Of a DNA stretch of 64,000 nt, positions 61,901-64,000 are shown in pieces. Source of the DNA: Oryzias latipes (Eukaryota; Chordata; Actinopteri; Beloniformes; Adrianichthyidae). Location: contig NC_019875.2 in NCBI RefSeq assembly GCF_002234675.1, positions 22,376,299 to 22,440,298 on the forward strand, given 5' to 3'. The position numbers were made by a program, and so were the translations under genes. Under the pieces are notes generated by a model. It was not told the origin of the DNA. It searched no databases and saw only the letters and a program-made list of their open reading frames with translations. The number at the start of each line of letters is the position of its first letter. The first letter of the stretch is position 1.

Positions 61901-64000
61901 AAATCATGTCAAGAAAGAGAAAGTGGTGAGTGGTGTTTGAGCTCAAATGCAGAGAAGTTGACTTGTTATTGGGAATAGAGTTTTAATAATTCACTCCAAC
62001 ATGAACAAAGCTTTAATTGAAACACGACAAAGAAAAGAGCAAAAAAACTTAAATCAAGGAGGTCCCAGTAGAGGTCTTTGTCCGATAAGCTGACGAACTA
62101 AAAAACCAAAGTAAACACCAATTCTCATGGTATATGAAATAAAATCATGGAAAGTTGTGTAATGTAAATTAATTCAGTGTTTGTAGCTGCATTTTTAACA
62201 CATTTTCTCTAAATATAAAAACTACGGTAAATACCATTTTCTTATTAGCAAAACTTTGATTGTTTACATCAAAGCTGCATGTCAGTTGATTAAATTGGAA
62301 ATATGTAAAAAGACAAAACATTCAAGACTGTGTGTGACGGGTTTTGCTTTCCTTCCTCAGCCATGCATCATAATCAATAACATCCAGCAGCTCAGGGTTC
62401 AGCTGGAGAAGATGTTTGAGGCGATGGGGGGCAAAAATGTACGTCTCCCTTATGGCTTTTTATCGATTTTACTTTCATATGTCAAGGTTTTGATACCTAA
62501 TGCGTCATTTTTGTCTCAGCTCAACGTTGAGGCCAGTGACTTCCTGAAGGAACTCCAGAACAAACTCAACAGCGTCATGGATGACCTCAGCCGCATCTTT
62601 GCCGTCAGGTTTCTGCTGATTCTGCCTGGATCTATTTTTTCGTTCTGATGATAAGCATTTGTGCTCAGGTTGTTCCTCCTGTTTGCTGTTAAAGTTTCCA
62701 GCCTCAGATCGAGGATAACGTCAGGCAGATGGGAGATATCCTTGCTCAGGTGAAAGGTCAGACCGTCCCTGCAAACGGCAGCGTTGTGCAGGAGGCCGAC
62801 AACGTGCTCCAACCAATCATGGACTTCCTGGACAGCAAGTATGAATAAAAACATGTGGAATGATCAGAATCTTTTCAGCATTTTTGAGTAACCCTTGTGC
62901 TATCCTAGGCACTTTAACATTGGGAGTTGGGTCATTTAGACCCACTAGACTGTGCTTTAAACCTTTTTTCTTCAATGATTTGTGATCTTCACTGGTGTCC
63001 ATGGATTACATGAAATCCTCTCCACCTTTATCCACCTTTATCGTGGTAGGGAGAACACGTCAATGTAAGGGTGGGGTCATCTAAGATAGCACAAGGGTTA
63101 ATAATGTCTGTCACGAGTTTCTCTACAAAACAACGTTGGCATTAAATAAGTCCATGTCTTTCTGTTTGTGTGTGTTGTTGTTTTCCAGCTTGTCATTATT
63201 TGCAAAGATCTGTGAGAAGACCGTTCTGAAACGAGTCCTGAAGGAGCTGTGGAAACTGGTGATGAACACCATGGAAAAAACCATTGTTCTTCCAACGCTC
63301 ACCGACCAAACGGTAGGTTCAAACAGAGAAAAACCCGCATTTTGTCCTTCTACTTCTAGTCTAGCTCAGTATTCTACACAACCACAGGTTAACTGGTTTG
63401 TCCTGCCATCTCCCTCCTCTTGTTCTGCTTCTCTTAGGTTATTGTAAGTATTTGTTTGTGGCCTTTAACAGCATGAAGAAGCACAGGACCTCACCCTCAC
63501 CTCCTGCAGCCTTTCTCACATTTCCCTCCCTGTGCATCACAGCCTGATTAAAGCTGCAGCCTTGTGCTCCATAAGTAGCTTTGATTTCCCAGGAGCACTT
63601 GCAATACTGAGTGAGCTATTAACTAAAACACAGAAACCTCAGTCCTGTCCTAAATCAACCCCAGAGACTAAACTGGTTCACATATTTTCACTTGAATCAC
63701 TACTCAGCTGAACGGAAATGAAGCCCTCTTTACCTCCATCCCTCCTCTGTCACCTCGCCAGCATGGCTACTAGTTTCCCTCCCTGCTGATCTGAGCGTCT
63801 CTCTTTGACAGGGCACACAGATGATCTTCAACGCCGCTAAAGACCTCGGTCAGCTCTCCAAGCTCAAGGTGATGAAGCCTTCTGACACACAAACACATTT
63901 GACATATAGATTTGTAACATCTGTGGTTTTGGGTTTGCTCTCCCAGGAGCACATGGGCCGCGAGGAGGCCAAAGCTCTGACTCCTAAGCAGTGTGCAGTC
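37931..64000 (+). CDS. unc13a: UNC13A (Munc13-1), synaptic vesicle priming protein, 5' part through the MUN region; cut by the window end
   Basis: Exons: 37931-37952, 42411-42440, 42545-42644, 45104-45221, 45405-45528, 46108-46178, 46991-47045, 47484-47513, 49304-49508, 51053-52156, 52284-52386, 53361-53404, 53916-53994, 55365-55439, 55526-55745, 56260-56487, 56802-56943, 57633-57802, 57964-58079, 58176-58339, 58498-58651, 58850-58918, 59123-59212, 59448-59582, 59676-59803, 59886-59971, 60046-60172, 60256-60352, 61622-61765, 61848-61925, 62361-62438, 62520-62608, 62695-62838, 63189-63312, 63812-63868, 63947 to the edge. This gives 1,618 codons in one frame. The start MSLLCVG followed by [16 protein letters not shown] is the N-terminal C2A domain (RIM and homodimer binding). 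An acidic and Pro/Gln-rich linker follows, then a calmodulin-binding-type segment (about 620-660), a C1 domain (H742 to C791, diacylglycerol binding), a Ca2+-binding C2B domain (about 868-980) and the MUN region that opens syntaxin. UNC13A rather than UNC13B is supported by the GVKKAK start. The last MUN part and C2C lie beyond the window. Confidence 0.96.
38143..38160 (+). repeat. Poly-C tract, 18 C (unc13a intron 1)
   Basis: Uninterrupted run of 18 C in the GC-rich start of unc13a intron 1. Two other long C runs occur in the same gene and on the same strand (47229-47269, 54623-54641). Confidence 0.9.
38675..39225 (-). repeat. Dispersed repeat family A, copy 5 (unc13a intron 1)
   Basis: Reverse-orientation copy running from 'ataatcttttcatcttttataaaagcgttcccagtt' to 'atttgtcctccatcatc'. 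It directly abuts a forward-orientation copy that starts near 39245. Confidence 0.65.
39245..39530 (+). repeat. Dispersed repeat family A, copy 6, inverted relative to its neighbour
   Basis: Forward orientation: 'taatgatggatatatataaaaa', 'aagcttcaaatt', 'gttggaaaaagtttgtagctgtgacgtag', then a jump to the distal end 'gatcaaaagatgctcagggtggg'. The centre of the element is deleted. Confidence 0.6.
40860..41270 (+). repeat. Dispersed repeat family A, copy 7 (unc13a intron 1)
   Basis: Forward orientation with 'gatgaaaattgtgctttggtgtttttaacatgttcttgtg', 'taacgatggaggacat' and 'gaatcaggagcagatg'. The distal part is degraded, ending near 'agctcaaaaggtgatcagagtggg'. Confidence 0.6.
42259..42351. repeat. 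Imperfect palindrome / hairpin just upstream of unc13a exon 2
   Basis: The arm 'ctttttttagtgaggac' (about 42297-42312) is followed, after a 14-base loop, by 'gtccttactaaaaaaag' (about 42327-42343). The outer flanks 'ttgtgctgttccttt' and 'aagggacacc' extend the pairing. It lies 60-150 bases before exon 2 (42411). Confidence 0.7.
42645..43135 (+). repeat. Long pyrimidine-rich tract in unc13a intron 3
   Basis: About 490 bases immediately after exon 3 are strongly enriched in C and T on the transcribed-sense strand, with repeated tctc, cctc and ttct words. No coding meaning is likely, although frames stay open because pyrimidine-rich DNA lacks stop codons. Similar shorter tracts follow other unc13a exons. 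Confidence 0.6.
44401..44475. repeat. Long stem-loop in unc13a intron 3
   Basis: 'cagaagaagcccacagaggc' (44411-44430) is nearly the reverse complement of 'gcctctgtgggtttttcttctg' (44442-44463), with a 10-11-base loop 'tgctgaaagag'. Weaker pairing continues outward (ctccacgg with cctgtggg). The size resembles a microRNA precursor or a tiny inverted-repeat element. Confidence 0.6.
46265..46850 (-). repeat. Dispersed repeat family A, copy 8 (unc13a intron 6)
   Basis: Reverse-orientation, nearly full-length copy from 'actttaaagatcatcctttgatc' and 'cgttcccagtggtcttttaatt' to 'tatgttttccaccatcag'. It includes 'tgtctgcaagtggatggatc' and 'ggagcggagcagggagcttgtg', blocks shared with copies 4 and 5. 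Confidence 0.7.
47229..47269 (+). repeat. Poly-C tract, 41 C (unc13a intron 7)
   Basis: An unbroken run of 41 C about 215 bases upstream of exon 8. The complementary strand is G41, able to form stacked G-quadruplexes. The true length is uncertain because long homopolymers assemble poorly. Confidence 0.9.
47692..47712. repeat. (TA)n microsatellite (unc13a intron 8)
   Basis: About ten TA units in unc13a intron 8. Ordinary simple repeat. Confidence 0.9.
51053..52156 (+). other. unc13a: Large unc13a linker exon: acidic then Pro/Gln-rich low-complexity segment
   Basis: Exon 10 alone is 1,104 bp. It opens with SPTGSYAS...SSQLSEED, a block also present in mammalian UNC13A as I recall. It continues with an acidic Tyr/Gly/Glu/Asp region with repeated YE-G and ED units, then about 200 residues dominated by Pro, Gln, Ser and Thr, and finishes acidic again. 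The family keeps this linker disordered and poorly conserved between C2A and the calmodulin-binding segment. It has no stop and its phases fit both neighbours. Confidence 0.9.
54533..54547 (+). promoter_or_regulatory. CTCF-like motif in unc13a intron 13
   Basis: CCAACAGGGGGCTCC matches 13 of 15 positions of CCASYAGRKGGCRSY on the plus strand. Motif match only; fish repeats sometimes carry such words. Confidence 0.3.
54623..54641 (+). repeat. Poly-C tract, 19 C (unc13a intron 13)
   Basis: Uninterrupted run of 19 C, then a T run. It is the third long C run on the sense strand of this gene. Confidence 0.9.
60502..60640. mobile_element. Tigger/pogo-like element end (unc13a intron 28)
   Basis: 'acagtgttgcctcgccatttcacggtttaccttttgcg' and 'agtgcaattttgcacgctat...acagcacactgtgttctgtgtcctgattggctg' are typical of the left end of a fish Tigger/pogo-type element. 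Only one end is recognisable. It is non-coding. Confidence 0.6.
62892..63097. mobile_element. TTAA-flanked MITE, copy 4 (unc13a intron 33)
   Basis: Ends CCCTTGTGCTATC and GATAGCACAAGGG. The 3' flank is TTAA (63098-63101) and the 5' flank GTAA, one substitution away. The body matches the three copies in and near eef2. Confidence 0.85.
63438..63443 (+). other. unc13a: Candidate 6-nt in-phase microexon of unc13a (GTTATT, Val-Ile)
   Basis: Between exons 34 and 35, both of which break in phase 0, a long pyrimidine tract ends in 'ctgcttctcttag', followed by GTTATT and then a near-perfect donor, gtaagta. Inclusion would insert Val-Ile after residue 1581 without changing frame. Splice-site quality is high on both sides, but no transcript evidence is available here. 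Confidence 0.45.

Follow-up and report, generated by a model that had tools for sequence, protein, structure and literature searches.

Does the short intron between two exons of a medaka unc13a gene conceal an exon of only six bases, and, if so, what would that exon add to the protein? The gene occupies the right end of the 64,000-nt stretch of Oryzias latipes DNA analysed here (the window) and lies on the plus strand, where a human UNC13A query yields 28 collinear tblastn pieces from 42544 to 64000 and where both exons bordering the intron at 63313-63811 are matched by rat Munc13-1 chains in the PDB; these results uphold the assignment to unc13a made in an earlier note from the sequence. We posit that the six bases GTTATT within this intron are a genuine unc13a microexon that descends from the UNC13A gene of vertebrates, a reading to which we assign a probability of roughly 0.92 and which draws on the splice signals of the locus, on a second unc13a copy in the same genome and on residue counts in rat Munc13-1.

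Table 1. Features of the candidate microexon and its surroundings, in window coordinates.
Feature	Position	Strand	Basis and remarks
Upstream unc13a exon	63189..63312	+	Phase 0 end; sequence, tblastn with human UNC13A, acceptor, PDB Munc13-1 match
Host intron, 499 nt, GTAGGT...GACAG	63313..63811	+	Sequence
Candidate branch point TTAAC, A at 63392	63389..63393	+	Sequence
Pyrimidine-rich tract (42 nt, AG-free) and TTAG acceptor, ..ctgcttctcttag	63394..63437	+	Sequence, matrix score
Six-base microexon GTTATT (Val-Ile), candidate	63438..63443	+	Sequence, chance tests, paralogue ATGATT
Consensus donor GTAAGT	63444..63449	+	Sequence, matrix score
Downstream unc13a exon, GGC ACA CAG ATG.. (GTQMIF...)	63812..63868	+	Phase 0 start; sequence, tblastn
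GCATG, RBFOX-type motif	63471..63475	+	27 nt past donor start

The arrangement that the earlier note had described, a pyrimidine tract with a TTAG acceptor, six bases and a GTAAGT donor between two phase-0 exons, is present as claimed at 63394-63449 (Table 1). The upstream exon closes with ..CTC ACC GAC CAA ACG (...LTDQT), and the A of the candidate branch point lies 46 nt 5' of the six bases, with no AG before that of the acceptor at 63436-63437. Both border exons being in phase 0, inclusion of GTTATT would place Val-Ile between Thr and Gly and keep the frame; the six bases thus have the proportions of a vertebrate microexon, which measures 3-27 nt (an upper limit of 30 is also given), in a multiple of three and here in phase 0. 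Elsewhere in unc13a, a relaxed scan picks out a second candidate for a very short exon, an exon-like stretch of 30 nt at 47484-47513 (GTAACTGGAGTCTG...) with good splice-site scores; it resembles what we take to be the human segment ..NWNYFGWGEQ...

Could such a pair of splice sites have arisen by chance? Scored with simple acceptor and donor matrices (not MaxEnt), it reaches 8.1 and 2.1, and it is the sole acceptor-donor pair in the 64-kb window, on either strand, that attains both scores at a distance of 3-30 nt divisible by three. Since the thresholds were taken post hoc, from the scores of the candidate itself, the figures that follow are guides only. In 60 resamples of the window under a first-order Markov model, equally strong pairs at distances of 3-30 nt divisible by three averaged 0.15 (0.05 for length six), and on the plus strand of the resampled intron an equally strong six-base pair appeared in 1 of 20000 trials and any equally strong pair of 3-30 nt, in multiples of three, in 30 of 20000. 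As a genome control, 20 arbitrary 10-kb stretches (200 kb, including 583 N, both strands) contained three pairs of other lengths and no six-base pair, even at the lower acceptor threshold set by the second copy described below. The bare motif YAG-N6-GTAAGT occurs twice in the same 200 kb and three times in the window, both strands counted and two of the three on the minus strand. The assertion that the arrangement is hard to obtain by chance consequently holds for the pair together with its tract and fails for the bare motif, which is not rare; it is the pyrimidine tract that makes the difference. Because a six-base pair this strong came up only once in the intron resamples and in none of the genome stretches, chance is a poor explanation, and the acceptor and donor signals of GTTATT go beyond it.

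Relatives of the gene offer an independent comparison. The upstream exon matches at least five UNC13-type loci in the genome, designated C17 (the window), C4, C3, C12 and C9, and the closest to the window copy is that on C4, whose DNA is 90% identical along the initial 115 query bases. In the corresponding intron of C4, which spans 5707 nt against 499 nt in the window copy, a six-base exon in phase 0 lies at C4:7727300-7727305, reading ..ctctccttcacag, then ATGATT, then gtaagtac..; it is flanked by ttcacag and, like GTTATT, by a gtaagt donor, and it encodes Met-Ile instead of Val-Ile. Its acceptor scores 6.1, and any six-base pair as strong was found in 9 of 2000 resamples of the C4 intron. 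The same intron contains, at C4:7730278-7730307 (L005:4779-4808), a 30-nt exon between tttcag and gtaagg that encodes GRLKSASHSD; at thresholds of 4 for the acceptor and 0 for the donor, the intron has no other pair of 3-30 nt with a length divisible by three, and a looser scan (up to 120 nt) adds one pair of 12 nt and two of 108 nt, all free of stops, one of the 108-nt pairs being an extension of the 30-nt exon. At the three remaining loci the six-base exon was not found, by a lenient scan at C3 (one 54-nt match only), by a scan at C9 that returned only the true downstream exon, and by eye in the short intron of C12. The exon is accordingly seen at two of the five UNC13-type loci, namely both unc13a copies, and the C4 copy settles most of the doubt over the window microexon. 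A separate feature of C3 is that its downstream exon at the corresponding junction (L006:850-865) begins with tandem acceptors, acag followed by CAACAG and then GGAGCT, which could optionally add six bases, or Gln-Gln.

The second line of comparison comes from rat Munc13-1 (the papers cited here and below are used through excerpts of their text). According to PMC5344669, which cites Brose 1995, residues 1408-1452 form an alternatively spliced loop of poor conservation; they are missing from the crystallised fragment 529-1531 (5ue8). The loop has been taken out of Munc13 constructs for solubility, as papers including PMC5344669 state, and the six distinct PDB sequences that match the border exons have only a short linker in its place. 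In 5ue8 the first P of VLPP stands at chain position 878 and, on the assumption that 529 is the first residue of the chain and no tag precedes it, is residue 1406, the second P being 1407. In 3swh (VLPPEFSKLK) the S follows an EF linker, one residue shorter than the linker in 5ue8 and 7t7c, and the length of the chain fits the same numbering if it spans 1148-1531, the range that we take it to have. The rat Munc13-1 construct of PMC10634917 is without the 23 residues G1415-D1437 and represents a splice variant. Between P1407 and this block rat has seven residues (1408-1414) and fish five (LTDQT), and after the block both have 15 (1438-1452 in rat); provided that there is no further insertion between P1407 and S1453, two extra rat residues therefore fall at the Thr/Gly junction. 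By count, then, the rat variant without the block would keep residues 1413-1414 between the counterparts of ..LTDQT and GTQ.., at the same junction of the same gene at which the fish copies would insert two residues. Rat 1413-1414 are presumably Met-Ile, as in the C4 copy, and the mention in the earlier note of mammalian isoforms with added Met-Ile at this junction is in this indirect way borne out. Neither DQTMIG nor MIGNLLRK was found by a search of literature text, and the human loop, when used as a query against the PDB, returned no Munc13 match. Conservation in homologues is thus represented by the C4 copy and the rat residue count, next to three other UNC13-type loci without the exon.

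The block itself was also sought in fish. Seven of the ten residues of GRLKSASHSD match the last ten of the rat block as quoted in PMC10634917, and the 30-nt exon of C4 is likely the fish counterpart of the end of that block; this suggests that two exons, of 39 and 30 nt, may make up the block in rat, and a search of the C4 intron for its first half (13 residues) gave nothing convincing. In the window intron a counterpart of the block was judged absent, tblastn at E values up to 100 returning only two-residue scraps. The window copy would therefore differ from the mammalian loop both in this and in encoding Val-Ile, where mammals presumably have Met-Ile.

Granted that the exon is real, is its inclusion regulated? 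A constitutive microexon, in which GTTATT is essentially always included and does not act as a regulated neuronal cassette, is a possibility that we hold to be on the unlikely side and still take seriously. Its acceptor score of 8.1 exceeds that of 25 of the 28 unc13a acceptors, compared with the same crude matrix and placed heuristically by a simple rule near the tblastn ends, and the intronic half of its donor is perfect; constitutive microexons are described as carrying U2AF2-type tracts (PMC4317164), and rat clones, both those that served for structures and that of PMC10634917, are without the 23-residue block yet keep the two residues by count. On the other side, microexons of the UNC13 family are reported to be alternative (PMC12287369). 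Nor do the motifs at the locus speak for a particular regulator. SRRM4 targets are described as having UGC upstream of the acceptor together with weak acceptors (PMC10551640). UGC does occur in the window tract at 63426-63428, 12 nt before the microexon, and 24 nt before it in the C4 copy; it was dropped as evidence for SRRM4, being common at ordinary unc13a acceptors (among the 28, within 20 nt of 12 and within 30 nt of 15). The acceptors of both copies (8.1 and 6.1) are not weak, and GTTATT is not classed among SRRM3/4-regulated neuronal microexons because its acceptor is strong. The GCATG downstream of the donor is weak evidence at a density of about one per kb in unc13a, and the motif was not found in the 114 nt after the C4 microexon. 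The genome has two SRRM_C domain loci, and control by Srrm3/4 is possible, but the motifs give it no support. Since unc13a is mostly neural, an exon included at high levels in brain would seem constitutive in any case. A neuron-biased inclusion of GTTATT is what we infer.

Far less probable is that the window copy holds a relic, a chance or decayed pair, and that a Met-Ile microexon is live only in C4. The first codons do differ (GTT against ATG), the window intron is less than a tenth as long and no counterpart of the 30-nt exon was found in it; moreover, conservation of the intron flanks between the two copies is undetectable, an alignment centred on the microexons giving 68% identity at E 0.43 and ranking only third, with two matches in other places above it. 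Against this, the window copy has two undamaged, strong splice sites, preserves the frame and shares its second codon, ATT, with C4, and decay would be expected to strike the splice sites. Hardly credible is the idea that the acceptor belongs to a longer poison exon or to a step of recursive splicing: GT does directly follow the AG, and reading through GTTATT gives 12 codons and then TGA, but at exactly six bases' distance there is a consensus GTAAGT, recursive splicing has no evident use in a 499-nt intron, and in C4 it is ATGATT, not GT, that comes after the acceptor AG.

Returning to GTTATT as a genuine microexon, its recognition would likely proceed by intron definition, a six-base exon being too short for ordinary exon definition, and would be helped by an upstream piece of intron of only 125 nt. 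The exon would behave as a cassette, included mainly in neurons, and inclusion would lengthen a flexible MUN-domain loop by Val-Ile, in the region of rat residues 1408-1452. Since this loop can be deleted from constructs used for structures and reconstitution, the two residues would more likely fine-tune vesicle priming by Munc13 than switch it on or off. The further optional exon of the loop that C4 and rat possess was not found in the window copy and appears to have been lost from it. We further propose, at about even odds, that an ancestral, splicing-tuned MUN loop was divided between the two unc13a copies once the fish genome had duplicated, C4 retaining Met-Ile and GRLKSASHSD and the window copy only Val-Ile in a short intron.

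Tiny exons have precedents in this family. Mammalian Unc13a, Unc13b and Unc13c contain microexons (PMC12287369), and the six-nt, SRRM4-dependent microexon of mouse Unc13b (Quesnel-Vallieres 2015), whose included form supports neurite outgrowth, resembles GTTATT as a six-base exon in an UNC13 gene, to judge from the papers that cite it (PMC12287369, PMC5247714). The nine-nt VLK microexon of C. elegans unc-13 is functional: motor transmission suffers when its skipping is forced, and olfactory behaviour when its inclusion is (PMC12287369). This exon and the six-nt Unc13c microexon are likewise tiny, in frame and of the same family, but they lie between the calmodulin-binding and C1 domains and not in the MUN loop, and are separate microexons. 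In the listed text of three papers on zebrafish microexons (PMC12626424, PMC13281805 and PMC12626420) the term 'unc13' was not found. Microexons often go unannotated, as do 23.8% of those in zebrafish brain (PMC7821500). Against this background, microexons of the UNC13 family are known, and what would be new is the fish unc13a example and the differing content of optional loop exons in its two copies.

Munc13-1 is the central priming factor for neurotransmitter release, and the loop at issue is absent from the solved structures found; a literature search found no tests of tiny optional exons in the MUN loop. Two fish unc13a copies with different minimal loops would make the role of the loop testable by removal of six bases, and, if the division of the ancestral loop between them is true, the pair would offer a natural test of the part that the loop plays in vesicle priming.
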